From positions 1 to 64,000 of the forward strand of contig JACRPF010000003.1 in NCBI GenBank assembly GCA_016214035.1: a stretch of 64,000 nt of DNA, given 5' to 3'. The notes below the pieces were generated by a model. It saw only the letters and a program-made list of their open reading frames with translations, had not been told where the DNA came from and ran no database searches. This document shows positions 55,304-63,684 of this stretch, piece after piece. A program made the translations under genes and the position numbers. The stretch is from Spirochaetota bacterium (GTDB lineage: Bacteria; Spirochaetota; Brachyspiria; Brachyspirales; JACRPF01). How positions within the stretch are numbered: position 1 is the first letter of the stretch; every line of letters starts with the position of its first letter.

Positions 55304-55864
55304 TCAGGGGATGATGCGGCGGCATAACGTGATGACCGCATCCGGCTTCCAATGCGAGACGAATCTGAATTCATCCGGATTGAACCCCTCTGCGGCTATG
55401 AGCTCCGCTGATGCTCCGCGTTGACGGAACGTGCATGACGACATGTCATAGCAGGCTCCGAGTCCGATTGTTTTTACGAACGATTCCTTGGCCGTCCAGA
55501 AGATCAGCGGTTCGCCGGTGCGTTCTTCGGCAGTGAAAAAAAGCTCCGCGGCTTCACGCGCGGCGTTCACCCGGGCGGTATCTTCAATATCGATGCCCAC
55601 CGCTCCTTCGTTCGATACGGCGAGCACCGCGGCCTTCGATGAATACGATATGCTGACATACCAGTGATGCCCCGGAACGAACGGCCGTCCGTAGTGCGTG
55701 TGTGTGATGGTTACCTGCCGCTCGTCGGCTGCGAACAGCGATGCGAGCGTTCGTCGTATCGGCCGTGCGGCAGCCGCGCGCACATTGTTTCTTCCGATGT
55801 CCGGGAAATTGAAACAGACACAGTATACTCCATCGGCAAGCGGCAGTAGTTCAGCGGTATCCAT
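55304..55864 (-). CDS. Sfp-type 4'-phosphopantetheinyl transferase, partner of the NRPS
   Basis: The 186 residues belong to the Sfp/AcpT superfamily, which loads phosphopantetheine from CoA onto carrier-protein Ser. Motifs: RRTLASLFAADERQVTITHTHYGRPFV, WYVSISYSSKAAVLAVSNEGAVGIDIED (G-x-D-x-E metal site) and FFTAEERTGEPLIFWTAKESFVKTIGLG (W-x-x-K-E-x-x-x-K). The ATG at 55864 starts 2 nt after the NRPS stop, so it is made with the NRPS and very probably activates its carrier domain. An in-frame start 16 codons upstream lies inside the NRPS gene and is not favoured. Confidence 0.9.
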   Translation of the reverse strand: MDTAELLPLADGVYCVCFNFPDIGRNNVRAAAARPIRRTLASLFAADERQVTITHTHYGRPFVPGHHWYVSISYSSKAAVLAVSNEGAVGIDIEDTARVNAAREAAELFFTAEERTGEPLIFWTAKESFVKTIGLGACYDMSSCTFRQRGASAELIAAEGFNPDEFRFVSHWKPDAVITLCRRIIP

Positions 55865-55866
55865 GA

Positions 55867-58800
55867 TCAGCGTTTCTGCGGTGTGACGCGCGAGACCGGT
55901 GAGCCGGTCCACGACGAATTCCGGCAGAGTGTTTCACCTTTCATCACGAGCGACAGATCGCCCACCTTAACGTCGTCCTCTATCTCGGTGTCGTAGAGTA
56001 CGAGTGTGGCGCTTCCCACCGAAACGCGCGATCCGATGTGTATCGCGCCGAGCTTCATGATACGGTCCTCGAAGAGGTGCGTCTGTATGGTACAGTCCTC
56101 GTTGAGCGCCACATCGTGTTCAAGGGTGACAAGATCGAACTCGGTGAAATCCATGGTGTGTATGCATGCCCGCTTGCCGATTTTCATTCCCATGAGTCTG
56201 AAATACCAGGGCAGGAATACCGTGCCCATCAGATGGTTGGCGAAGAACGGATTTGTGAAATTCTCTATGAATCCGGTCATAAGCTCGGTCTTCCATACGA
56301 AGGTGCTCCAGAGCGGATGCTCTCCGGGTTTATATTTGCCCACAATAATACGTTTCATGATTGCAGTCATGAACGCGGCACCGATGCCGAGTGCGGTGTA
56401 GATCAGCGGGAAAAGCAGTATGGTATGCATGAGCGGGATTTCGTCCTCGATGATGATGAAGAATGAGAGCAGCAGCGTGGTGAACAGCACATAGGCGGTT
56501 GACGGCAGTATGACGCGGAAGAATTCTATCGCGAGACGTTTGGCTATGAGCGGCGGCGGCGGCGCATAGGTTGTTTCCTCGGCGAAGAATGCGTCACGGC
56601 GTTCGCGTTTGGGAAGGAATACCGCCGGCGTACCCACCCATGAGGTGCCGTCTTTGACCGTGCTTTCCGGCGGGAGTGTGAGACAGCCGATGAGGCAGTC
56701 GCTGCCGACCGATGTGCCGATGGGGATGAACGCGCTGTTGCCGATGAATGTCCGCGCTCCGATGGCGGTTTTTTTCAGTGTCATCATGCCGTTTTCGACC
56801 TTGGCGGCACCGAGCCCCACGCCGTCGGCGATGAAACTCCGGTCATTAATCGACAGAAGATCCGGCAGGATGAACGATGCGGTGGAAACCTCGGCCCGGC
56901 TGCCGAGTTTGACGCCGAGTGCCCGATACCACGGCAGGAGATACAGCGTTGCATACAGCGAGCCGAGCATGCCGAGACTGATCTCCATGAACTTATCGAA
57001 CAGCCATTTACGCATGCGGAAAAAGCTTTTCAGCGGATAGACGCCCGTCTTCATCCGCCCGACGACGATCCACTTTACCGCGATGATCTGAAGCATCGAC
57101 AGCGATACGAAAATGATTCCCACGAATGGCGCGGACAACAGGTAAAAGTAGTTTTCCGTCGCGTAGTCGATATTGTACATGAACATGACGCCGGGGAATA
57201 TCGGCAGAAGCCCGAGCACCGGCAGAATGAAAAAACTGGCGCTGTAGAAGAAGAGTGCAAACGCTTCGGTGAGAGCGTTCCGGGGCCGGTGATGATGAAC
57301 CGGCTGTACCGGCGTGTGATCTTTACGTGCCGGAGAACCGCGCCAGCGTTCATATGCACCCACCGTCATGCCGGTTGCTATGCAGGTAAGATCTTCTATT
57401 ACGGCATTGTCGCCGATTGAGCTGCCCGCGGCAATGATGGCCCGGATGCCGACGGAAACATTGTTGCCGATGGTCACGCGTCCTATTTTGAGCAGCCCGT
57501 CCTCGATGCTGTGGCAGGAAATGTTCGCCTCGCTGTTGAGTGACGAGTTATCGCCGATGGCAAGTGTATCGAACCCGGCGATGAGGTCGGAATCGATATA
57601 GACGTCCTTGCCCACGCGGACGCCGAGAAGTTTCAGATAGAATCCGATGAGCGGAGTACCGGAGAGAAAATGCAATGGAATGTTCGACAGCATGCCGCGT
57701 ACAAAGAGCCAGCGCAGATAATACAGTCCCCACACCGGATGCTCACCTTCGCGCACGCGTCCGAGTACAATCCACTTGAGTGCTATTCCTGTCACGAGCA
57801 TCGTGGGATATACGAGCGCGAGCGCGGTGACCGCCGCGGCGAGTGATTCTATGTGGCCGTATTCGTAGGCGCGCAGATAACTGTACACCAGGAACGGCGT
57901 TACCCACTGCAGCGAATAAAACGCGAAATTGATGATGACGATGAACACTTGAATAAAACCGCTGGCGATGTACCTCCATCCGGGAACCGGGCGGAATGAA
58001 TCGGCCGGCCGTGCGGATGCAGATGATGCGGTATTTTTCTCCATGGTCCGTTCAAGCAGTTTCGCCATCGATGCTATTGTCGGGTTTTCGTAGAGGTCGC
58101 GCATGGACAGCCCCGGCCAGCGCCCGTCCTTGCGCATGCGGGATACGAACTGTGCCGCGAGAAGCGAATGGCCGCCGAGAGCGGTGAAAAAATCGTCGTG
58201 TTCGGTCATCGTTGGAAGTTTCAGTATGTCGCACCACGCGCGGAATATGGTGTTCTTTACCGGTGTCCCGAGATCTACGTCCTGTGACGATGCGGCAGCC
58301 GGCGGTGTGCGTTCCGGAAAGCCGTTGCGGTTCACCTTGCCGCTGGCGAGTTTCGGCAGCCGGTCAAGTATTTCGATGAATGCCGGCACCATATAGGGCG
58401 GCAGCTTTTTCCGGAGGAGTGTAAGCGTTTTCTGATCGTCGAACGCAGTACCTTTGCGTAATGTGACGAAGGCCGCGAGGAAGCGGCTTTCACCTTCGCC
58501 CTGCGCTACTACGGCGGCTTCAGCGATGCCCGGTACGGCCACGAGTTCAGCTTCTATCTCGCCCAGTTCAATGCGGTATCCGCGTATTTTCACCTGCGTA
58601 TCGATGCGCCCGAGATATTCGATCTCGCCGTTGATGCCGATGCGTGCGCGGTCGCCGGTACGGTAGAGGAGGAGACTTTCATCGCCGGTGACCGATGCAA
58701 GGCGGTTCATAATGAACTTTTCATGCGTGAGCTCATCGCGATTGAGATATCCGTTCGCAACCCCCGCGCCGCCGATGACGAGTTCTCCGTCTCTGCCGCG

Positions 58801-59835
58801 GTCGAGTATTGTGCCGTGCTCGTCCATGATGTATGCGGTGTAATTGGGCAGCGGTGTGCCGATGGTGACGGGGACGTCGGGATGCAGGCGGCTGAGCGTT
58901 GCGACAACGGTTGTCTCTGTGGGGCCGTAGGTGTTGAAGATTCTCCGGCCCATCGTGAACCACGGCTTGAGGAGATGCGGTATGCACGCCTCGCCGCCGA
59001 GAATGAGCAGCCGCACGGTAGGGATATCGCCGTCAAACATCGACAGGAATGACGGGACGCAGGAAAGCACGGTGACTCCGAGCGACGAGAGTACTTCCGG
59101 CATCTGCGGTCCCGACTGCATGATGTCGGGAGTGCCTGCGACGAGCGTGGCTCCCGCCTGAAAACACGTCCATATCTCTTCAACCGATGCGTCGAATGCC
59201 GGCGAGAAACCCTGCAGTACCTTGTCGGAAGCGCTGATGCGGTAGATGCTCTGTTCGGCGTTGATAAGATGATAGGCGTTGGTGTGGCGTATCATCACGC
59301 CTTTCGGCCGGCCGGTTGTTCCGGATGTGTAGATGACATATGCCTCGGCATGGGGCGTGAGCGCGAGCGGGTGCGGTTCCGCGCTGCATGCGTTGATGGC
59401 ATCGTTTGCGCGGTCGATGAACACGGGCCGTATTTCCCTGTGTTTCACGTGTTCCGCGAATGTTTCGGTGGTGACGATGTATTTCGCTCCGCTGTCATGC
59501 GCGATGAATGCAATGCGGTCTGCGGGATATGACGTATCCAGCGGGACATATGACGCGCCTGTTTTTAATATGCCGATGAGCGATGCGTAGAGGCCTATCG
59601 ATCGGGGTATCAGCACACAGACGCGGTCACCGTAGCCGATACCGAGCCCCCGCAGATAATGGGCGAACCGGTTCGCGCTCCGTTCAAGCGCCGCATAGGT
59701 TATTGTTGCGCCGTCGGAGATAACGGCGGTGTTGTCGGGATAGGACTTTACCGAGGATTCGAACAGCTGATGCAGGAGTCCGTCGCCCGGTATCTCCGGG
59801 TGCGGATTTGCTAGGAACGATGCGTCGCTCACCAT
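55867..59835 (-). CDS. Pls/PosA-family membrane NRPS (A-T-TM with three LbH-type C domains)
   Basis: The 1322-residue protein has an adenylation domain at residues 1 to about 510 (A3 YTSGTTGRPKG at 169-179; A4 FDASVEEIW; A5 NTYGPTETT; A10 LASGKVNRNG) and a carrier domain with Ser in GGHSLLAAQFVSRM (about 560). Transmembrane helices and three tandem left-handed-beta-helix-like domains follow (VRVGKDVYIDSDLIAG..., VKLGSRAEVSTASFI..., MKIGKRACIHTMDFT...), each after a helical pair. No classical condensation, epimerase or thioesterase domain is present. This is the layout of epsilon-poly-L-lysine synthetase Pls and PosA/TIGR02353 proteins, in which the C1-C3 domains polymerise the activated amino acid. 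A hand-aligned specificity code reads D-A-E-S-I-G-T-V-V-K; the Glu favours a basic amino acid. AGGA precedes ATG 59835. Confidence 0.9.
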   Translation of the reverse strand: MVSDASFLANPHPEIPGDGLLHQLFESSVKSYPDNTAVISDGATITYAALERSANRFAHYLRGLGIGYGDRVCVLIPRSIGLYASLIGILKTGASYVPLDTSYPADRIAFIAHDSGAKYIVTTETFAEHVKHREIRPVFIDRANDAINACSAEPHPLALTPHAEAYVIYTSGTTGRPKGVMIRHTNAYHLINAEQSIYRISASDKVLQGFSPAFDASVEEIWTCFQAGATLVAGTPDIMQSGPQMPEVLSSLGVTVLSCVPSFLSMFDGDIPTVRLLILGGEACIPHLLKPWFTMGRRIFNTYGPTETTVVATLSRLHPDVPVTIGTPLPNYTAYIMDEHGTILDRGRDGELVIGGAGVANGYLNRDELTHEKFIMNRLASVTGDESLLLYRTGDRARIGINGEIEYLGRIDTQVKIRGYRIELGEIEAELVAVPGIAEAAVVAQGEGESRFLAAFVTLRKGTAFDDQKTLTLLRKKLPPYMVPAFIEILDRLPKLASGKVNRNGFPERTPPAAASSQDVDLGTPVKNTIFRAWCDILKLPTMTEHDDFFTALGGHSLLAAQFVSRMRKDGRWPGLSMRDLYENPTIASMAKLLERTMEKNTASSASARPADSFRPVPGWRYIASGFIQVFIVIINFAFYSLQWVTPFLVYSYLRAYEYGHIESLAAAVTALALVYPTMLVTGIALKWIVLGRVREGEHPVWGLYYLRWLFVRGMLSNIPLHFLSGTPLIGFYLKLLGVRVGKDVYIDSDLIAGFDTLAIGDNSSLNSEANISCHSIEDGLLKIGRVTIGNNVSVGIRAIIAAGSSIGDNAVIEDLTCIATGMTVGAYERWRGSPARKDHTPVQPVHHHRPRNALTEAFALFFYSASFFILPVLGLLPIFPGVMFMYNIDYATENYFYLLSAPFVGIIFVSLSMLQIIAVKWIVVGRMKTGVYPLKSFFRMRKWLFDKFMEISLGMLGSLYATLYLLPWYRALGVKLGSRAEVSTASFILPDLLSINDRSFIADGVGLGAAKVENGMMTLKKTAIGARTFIGNSAFIPIGTSVGSDCLIGCLTLPPESTVKDGTSWVGTPAVFLPKRERRDAFFAEETTYAPPPPLIAKRLAIEFFRVILPSTAYVLFTTLLLSFFIIIEDEIPLMHTILLFPLIYTALGIGAAFMTAIMKRIIVGKYKPGEHPLWSTFVWKTELMTGFIENFTNPFFANHLMGTVFLPWYFRLMGMKIGKRACIHTMDFTEFDLVTLEHDVALNEDCTIQTHLFEDRIMKLGAIHIGSRVSVGSATLVLYDTEIEDDVKVGDLSLVMKGETLCRNSSWTGSPVSRVTPQKR

Positions 59836-59980: not shown

Positions 59981-60664
59981 CTATCGCAGGATAAATACGC
60001 GGAATTTCCCGTTTGCAATCATGAACCCGCAGGGGCTCCAGCCGTCGCGGGCCTTTTTGGTGAGATCGGCCTCAAGTTCATTGATGTTGTTATAGGTGGT
60101 GATGTCGTATTCTTCGATCTCAAGTTTCGGCCATTTCAGGAAAAAGACGGAAACTTCGCCGGTAACTGAATTCCAGTTGAAGCCCATCGGAAGATAATCT
60201 TTCTCGGCGTATTTTTCAAGAAGTGCGTCGAATGCACGCGGGCCTTTGACGTTTTCAAGTTTCCATTCGGTCACTTTCTCGGCGAAGCGTTGATACAGCA
60301 CATAATTCAACCGCTGTCCCCAGGCCATGTCGCCGGGAATCCATCCTTTTTTCAGCTCCGCATCGATTCCCTTAATAGCCTCGTTCGTCGATTTGTACGT
60401 GATGATGCGCCAATCCTTGATTTCCTTATCGGGGTCAACATCGAAGAGGACATAGATACCTTCATATGCGCCTGATTCGATGACCTCGATACCGACGGGC
60501 GAATAGCCTTCTTTCATGAACTCTTCAATATCATTGCGCAGTGTTTTTGAATCGAGCGGATACACTTTAAACGTTGCTGCAATAGCCGGCGTTTGTACCT
60601 GTGCAGTTGCCAGGGATACAGAAAATATCATCGCGGAGAAAATGATTACCAGAGTCCGGAACAT
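59981..60664 (-). CDS. Secreted hypothetical protein with internal repeat
   Basis: The gene encodes 227 residues with signal peptide MFRTLVIIFSAMIFSVSLATA and AGGAGG before ATG 60664. Three related segments follow: LDSKTLRNDIEEFMKEGYSPVGIEVI, STNEAIKGIDAELKKGWIPGDMAWG and NNINELEADLTKKARDGWSPCGFMIANGKFRVFIL. Each has a helix then a K/EGW-x-P turn, so the protein is an internal tandem repeat of a small alpha/beta unit, similar to DUF4177-like proteins (this likeness is tentative). The open frame reaches 60721, but the strong ribosome-binding site sets the start. It has its own promoter. Function unknown. Confidence 0.75.
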   Translation of the reverse strand: MFRTLVIIFSAMIFSVSLATAQVQTPAIAATFKVYPLDSKTLRNDIEEFMKEGYSPVGIEVIESGAYEGIYVLFDVDPDKEIKDWRIITYKSTNEAIKGIDAELKKGWIPGDMAWGQRLNYVLYQRFAEKVTEWKLENVKGPRAFDALLEKYAEKDYLPMGFNWNSVTGEVSVFFLKWPKLEIEEYDITTYNNINELEADLTKKARDGWSPCGFMIANGKFRVFILR

Positions 60665-62643: not shown

Positions 62644-63684
62644 ATGGAATATGCTAAGATTATTGGAACGGGGTCCTATCTTCCCGATGAAGGGGTCAGT
62701 AATGAGAAACTGCTTGGAAAGATACAGAACTTCGACGCCGACAAGGCCCGCGCATCACTCGAGCGGGGCGGCGTAGACGTAAGCAAGTTCACGATAAGCG
62801 ACGTTTTTAAAACATGGGTGAAGGGCGTCACCGGCATTGTGCAGCGGTATTTTACCAAGGTGTCCACCGAAGAGATGGCGGCGATAGCCTCGCGCGAGGC
62901 GCTGGCAGCGGCCAATATTCCGGCATCCGACATCGAATACATCATCTTCGCAAGCTTCACGCCGTTCCGTGAGATACCGAATCCCGCGTGCACGCTTGCC
63001 GGAACACTCGGCATCAATGCGGGCGGTATTCAGACGAACACGGCATGCTGCGGATTCGTGGATGCGCTCATCACCGCCGACGCATACATCAAGTCGCAGA
63101 AATATAAGACCATACTCGTCGTTGCCGCCGAGGCGCTTACCAAGAAAGTGAATTATAACGACCCCACCACCGCGATACTGTTCGGCGATGGTGCCGGTGC
63201 GGCGATACTGCAGGCGAGTAAGGCCCCGGGCATCATCAGCACGTTTCAGAAATCCAATTATGATCCGGGCAATATCACGCTCGAGGCTAACGGGACGATC
63301 AGGATGGGCGGAGGACCGCTCGTGCTCAAGAAAGCGGTGAACGCCATGAAGGAGTCCGCGCTGGCGGCTCTGGAAAAAGCAAAGACCCACGCGAAACATA
63401 AAAACGCCGAAGATGTCCTCATGCACGAAGTGGATTTCATCATCCCGCATCAGGCGAACGAACGCATCATCGACAGCCTGCGCGAGAATCTCGCGGTGCC
63501 GAAGGAGAAATTCTGCAAAACGATATCGGAGATCGGCAACGTTTCCGGCGCGTCGGGTGCCATAACGCTCGACAAACTCATACGGGGAAAACTCGCCGGA
63601 CAGACCGTGAAGCGCGGCAACCGGCTCCTCTTCACCTCGGTAGGCGGCGGGTATACGCTCGGCGCCGTGTACATGATTTACTGA
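62644..63684 (+). CDS. fabH: 3-oxoacyl-ACP synthase III (KAS III, FabH-like)
   Basis: The 346 residues have the KAS III fold and catalytic triad: Cys in NTACCGFVDALIT, His in FIIPHQANERIIDSL and Asn in EIGNVSGASGAITLDKL. The start is AKIIGTGSYLPDEGVSNEKL. KAS III starts fatty-acid synthesis by joining acetyl-CoA and malonyl-ACP, but paralogues make 3-oxoacyl units for other products. No fab neighbours are visible, so it may be a specialised paralogue; the symbol is therefore tentative. GGAG lies upstream of the ATG. It is followed by a Gfo/Idh oxidoreductase gene, 22 nt away. Confidence 0.88.
   Translation: MEYAKIIGTGSYLPDEGVSNEKLLGKIQNFDADKARASLERGGVDVSKFTISDVFKTWVKGVTGIVQRYFTKVSTEEMAAIASREALAAANIPASDIEYIIFASFTPFREIPNPACTLAGTLGINAGGIQTNTACCGFVDALITADAYIKSQKYKTILVVAAEALTKKVNYNDPTTAILFGDGAGAAILQASKAPGIISTFQKSNYDPGNITLEANGTIRMGGGPLVLKKAVNAMKESALAALEKAKTHAKHKNAEDVLMHEVDFIIPHQANERIIDSLRENLAVPKEKFCKTISEIGNVSGASGAITLDKLIRGKLAGQTVKRGNRLLFTSVGGGYTLGAVYMIY

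Follow-up and report, generated by a model that had tools for sequence, protein, structure and literature searches.

We propose that the window analysed here, a 64,000-nucleotide stretch of a Spirochaetota contig, encodes an intact epsilon-poly-L-lysine synthetase of the Pls/PosA family, which probably forms an operon with its activating 4'-phosphopantetheinyl transferase (PPTase). We regard this reading as likely. The pair occupies positions 55304-59835, as a reading of the sequence alone had reported without giving the strand; both genes lie on the minus strand. The features considered below are:

55867..59835, minus strand: Pls/PosA-type poly(amino acid) synthetase, 1322 aa, ATG start
58336..59193, minus strand: the ten substrate-code codons of the synthetase (residues 215-500; D A E S I G T V V K), placed by alignment to 7WEW and 8G95/8G97
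56062..56085, minus strand: QTHLFEDR motif in the third left-handed beta-helix (LbH) domain (residues 1251-1258), candidate catalytic site
55304..55864, minus strand: Sfp-type PPTase, 186 aa, ATG start, PF01648
59981-60664, minus strand: secreted 227-aa protein with four alpha-beta-beta repeats (GYxPxGI...), upstream of the synthetase

The synthetase consists of an adenylation (A) domain (approximately residues 20-505), a carrier (T) domain (530-594) and a C-terminal membrane/LbH polymerisation domain (619-1322). Pfam recognized AMP-binding (25-364), AMP-binding_C (426-500), PP-binding (530-594) and a single Hexapep stretch (787-814), and reported neither a condensation nor a thioesterase domain, in agreement with the earlier description of one A domain, one T domain with a GGHSL motif and no condensation or thioesterase domain. 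The NCBIfam model TIGR02353 (‘Pls/PosA family’) scored 602 bits, 179 above its curated cut-off of 423, and matched over its whole length (residues 628-1314, profile positions 2-695 of 695), while TIGR01733 matched at 402 bits; with E-values as low as 1e-180, chance is excluded. The frame is open across all 1322 codons and retains every one of the 124 positions that are near-invariant in a set of 83 sequences (the window, the same-family genome G147, relatives from genome contigs and 12 homologues from plasmids, PosA and Streptomyces sequences among them). The family model, the substrate code, this full conservation and the predicted fold together support the assignment of the pair as a Pls/PosA-type synthetase with a PPTase.

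The substrate code points to lysine. In the pocket alignment the window synthetase and the epsilon-poly-L-lysine synthase A domain of PDB 7WEW both read DAESIGTVV, with Lys500 as the tenth code residue of the window enzyme, whereas PosA, the delta-poly-L-ornithine synthetase of Acinetobacter baumannii (8G95/8G97), reads DMEHNGTVS with the tenth position gapped. Because this PosA reading equals the published code (PMC10522769), we consider the mapping valid, and it confirms the string that the sequence-only reading had aligned by hand. In this family the pocket Asp and Glu at code positions 1 and 3 bind both amines; mutants of PosA show that they are essential, and code position 2 is Ala for lysine, Met for ornithine and Phe for shorter diamino acids (PMC10522769). 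The window enzyme has this Asp and Glu as D215 and E219. A PosA-type ornithine pocket (DMEHNGTVSK or TK) was rejected, as position 2 of the window code is Ala and S-I stands in place of H-N; a neutral amino-acid specificity was likewise rejected on the Glu kept at the GrsA 239 position, which had first been read as a sign of a Lys/Orn/Dab-type domain and which the code match now narrows to lysine. Since the code matches that of 7WEW and differs from that of PosA, L-lysine is the best-predicted substrate. The same code occurs in three Streptomyces homologues, one of them adjoining an M1 peptidase gene. Elsewhere in the family, a homologue on a plasmid of Streptomyces sp. NBC_00060 (L130, 2868-6887) has the code DSECYGGVTK, also that of a Bdellovibrionales enzyme reported to activate arginine weakly (PMC10522769).

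It appears unlikely that the enzyme, while still making a cationic homopolymer as a member of this family, takes a different diamino acid as its substrate, be it ornithine, beta-lysine, diaminobutyrate or some unusual analogue of lysine. Stachelhaus codes are predictive only in part, and the family uses several such substrates, with PosA activating some lysine besides ornithine (PMC10522769). Yet the window enzyme has the 7WEW code, and the known non-lysine codes all differ from it: PosA, the poly-beta-lysine enzyme (DGESISVVNK; PMC10522769) and a homologue adjoining diaminobutyrate genes (DFECLSAVTK).

The PPTase was identified by the Pfam ACPS model (PF01648; 41.2 bits against a cut-off of 25), the sole domain found, and its translation contains VGIDIED (GxDxE type) and FWTAKESFVK (WxxKExxxK type), so that the catalytic motif is intact. 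At the junction the synthetase stop TGA is followed by TC and then by the PPTase ATG; the domain score, the motifs and this 2-nt gap bear out the Sfp-type PPTase noted from the sequence. The window genome has two ACPS-family matches, of which this PPTase is one. A PPTase lies directly downstream of the synthetase in at least about 45 of 80 named loci, a lower bound as some loci end early, so that an adjoining PPTase is not an unusual trait. Such pairing is found chiefly in an ornithine-code Sphingomonas/Agrobacterium group, but also in Bacteroidota, Verrucomicrobiota and Eisenbacteria, and in annotated Rhizobium and Sphingomonas plasmids. Because the window PPTase is at most approximately 31% identical to those adjoining related synthetases, the synthetase–PPTase pairs need not be of common descent, and the pairing may have arisen or been lost several times. 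Two other spirochaete genomes with the synthetase, G147 and G011 (both incomplete bins), have one ACPS-family match each; the window PPTase as query found no convincing relative in either bin, and a weak match in G147 (E 0.002), in an unrelated-looking 358-aa protein, was rejected. With no Sfp-type PPTase detectable in these two genomes, the pairing appears not to be essential in relatives, which counts against the proposed reading. Either the carrier domain of these enzymes is served by AcpS, or the incomplete bins hide a PPTase that escaped detection.

The C-terminal half of the synthetase contains six membrane helices in alternation with three LbH domains, as hydropathy, AlphaFold2 and Foldseek indicate. 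Three pairs of hydrophobic segments were found at approximately residues 621-692, 855-928 and 1105-1166, and an AlphaFold2 model of residues 619-1322, built from a 50-sequence alignment, had a mean pLDDT of 92.3 and a pTM of 0.91. Hydropathy and model thus uphold the alternating membrane segments and LbH-like domains proposed earlier, and the structure prediction resolves the three C domains as three repeats, each combining a pair of long helices and two shorter ones with a beta-helix (LbH). Published AlphaFold and RoseTTAFold models of PosA are consistent with this (PMC10522769). The best PDB matches of the window model in Foldseek were LbH acyltransferases and gamma-class carbonic anhydrases; in a PDB sequence search with the C-terminal half the better matches were all soluble LbH proteins, with no solved homologue of the whole domain among them. 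The soluble domains share the fold of serine acetyltransferase, maltose acetyltransferase and type B chloramphenicol acetyltransferase, but the window chain fuses three LbH copies with six membrane helices, and only the third copy contains the invariant QTHLFEDR motif. This motif is the strongest cluster of near-invariant positions in the family alignment: its Q, H and D never vary among the 82 sequences that have letters there, while the equivalent stretches of LbH domains 1 and 2 are variable. We infer from this conservation that the amide-forming site may lie in the third LbH domain, with His1253 as a candidate base, and the motif offers a concrete target for study of the polymerisation step.

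If the enzyme is an epsilon-poly-L-lysine synthetase, the PPTase would place phosphopantetheine on the T-domain serine, and the A domain (DAESIGTVVK) would activate L-lysine with ATP and transfer it, in thioester linkage, to the T domain. The three LbH domains, assembled in the membrane, would then link lysines singly via the epsilon-amine, and the chain would be released by hydrolysis or transfer. By this scheme lysine would be the actual substrate, the linkage an isopeptide bond and the product a polymer, not a dimer or a conjugate, presumably an antimicrobial or surface-active polycation.

Comparison with characterized systems both supports and qualifies this. The window synthetase shares with Streptomyces Pls (A domain 7WEW) the A-T-(membrane-helix pairs plus three LbH) layout, the substrate code, the conserved motifs and the absence of condensation and thioesterase domains. 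Against the lysine reading, it is only approximately 31% identical to the lysine-code Streptomyces homologues, falls in a separate clade and lacks an adjoining gene like the pldII-type peptidase that accompanies pls in Streptomyces and Corynebacterium (PMC8117764), having a PPTase instead; its T-domain motif is GGHSL rather than the GGTSL or GGSSL of those homologues. With PosA (8G95-8G98) it shares the family, the architecture, the essential pocket Asp and Glu, the GGHSL carrier motif and QTHLFEDR, but the two are 34% identical, the pocket is DAESIGTVVK rather than DMEHNGTVSK, and PosA is described as a single-gene operon (PMC10522769) where the window synthetase is followed by its PPTase. 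The lysine-code homologues from an uncultured Elusimicrobia bin and from Methylococcaceae (L040, L042 and L043) are closer, with 57-58% identity over the C-terminal half and a Lys-type code, but have no detected adjoining PPTase.

The neighbourhood was surveyed for genes that might handle a product. Pfam found no peptidase (pldII type), export, immunity or degradation gene adjoining the synthetase in the window, and a search of the window genome with a Streptomyces M1 peptidase, a query run without a positive control, gave no match. Such a peptidase is a feature of genomic context rather than of the synthetase itself. Downstream of the pair lies a glycerophosphodiester phosphodiesterase (Pfam). 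The secreted protein upstream (59981-60664) matches no Pfam family above cut-off (weak DUF1737, E 0.0087). A homologue also adjoins the synthetase in G147, and one further paralogue occurs elsewhere in each of these two genomes, but distant relatives are found in spirochaete genomes without the synthetase; as the family occurs in its absence, we rejected the protein as a polymer-specific partner, and it is probably unrelated. A KAS III-like (FabH family) protein is encoded approximately 2.8 kb from the synthetase (62644-63684, plus strand), its 232 bits just below the NCBIfam beta-ketoacyl-ACP synthase 3 cut-off of 249. In the two Methylococcaceae loci a similar, single-pass-looking membrane protein of approximately 440 aa (L040:4749-6062, L042:4706-6055) precedes the synthetase by 13-21 nt on the same strand, and is absent from the window.

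A lysine-specific enzyme with its own PPTase and no peptidase could conceivably serve a role other than a secreted antibiotic, e.g. in making a surface polycation or an envelope lysine conjugate, although we think this improbable. It is also unlikely that lysine is activated only for the enzyme to make short oligomers, or to pass lysine, or oligolysine, on to an acceptor in the envelope such as a lipid or sugar. The likeness of the C-terminal domain to LbH acyltransferases acting on small acceptors, the esterification by Pls of its own chains to alcohols such as glycerol (PMC9606270) and the lack of adjoining export, immunity and degradation genes are compatible with such transfer; however, homopolymers are what characterized members with this complete architecture produce (PMC10522769, PMC8117764), and none of the near-invariant residues is lost in the window synthetase.

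Among 393 sampled Spirochaetota genomes only three, G011 among them, have a synthetase above the TIGR02353 cut-off. Both sampled genomes of the window's family (the window genome and G147) carry it, while no genome of the other sampled family in the order passes the cut-off. The nearest relative is that of G147, 64-65% identical in the C-terminal half and with the same substrate code, followed by those of the Elusimicrobia bin and Methylococcaceae. In the tree (SH-aLRT support from a quick search, root arbitrary) the window and G147 sequences group at 99 and are joined by the Elusimicrobia bin and two Methylococcaceae at 100. The codes of all five members are of the lysine type and end in VVK, or in one case in VIK, and the clade stands apart from both the Streptomyces lysine-code clade and PosA. 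We found no characterized member of this spirochaete/Elusimicrobia/Methylococcaceae clade. The shared code in G147 and the recurrence of PPTase pairing across phyla support the epsilon-poly-L-lysine synthetase reading. The mixed phyla of the clade suggest that a deeper transfer between phyla is likely, within the limits set by bins and submitter titles; recent acquisition by the window genome is unsupported, with G+C and third-position G+C both unremarkable. A contig titled Klebsiella pneumoniae (L114), probably through a mistake in bin labelling, carries a homologue nearly the same as that of a Proteobacteria bin (L054, WB5_2B_004) and grouping with Verrucomicrobia.

Bin contamination (4.65% for this bin, and the closest relatives outside the family belong to other phyla) or a decaying gene copy is very improbable and was rejected, given the open 1322-codon frame with its near-invariant residues all kept, a 221,722-base contig on which the locus has a composition like its neighbours, and the separate same-family copy in G147.

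The TIGR02353 family is widespread, occurring in Pseudomonadota, Planctomycetota, Verrucomicrobiota, Bacteroidota and others, and spirochaete members have already been mentioned in print (PMC10522769), so that the view of this role as unusual outside actinomycetes and some other groups does not hold. Literature searches for poly-lysine with spirochaetes, for the TIGR number and for the code strings returned no matches. Epsilon-polylysine is a food preservative and a commercially used antimicrobial polymer. If the synthetase works as predicted, a spirochaete would make this polymer or a close relative, widening the range of producers; and because several clades outside the actinobacteria also have the lysine code, lysine use may have been an early trait of the Pls/PosA family.
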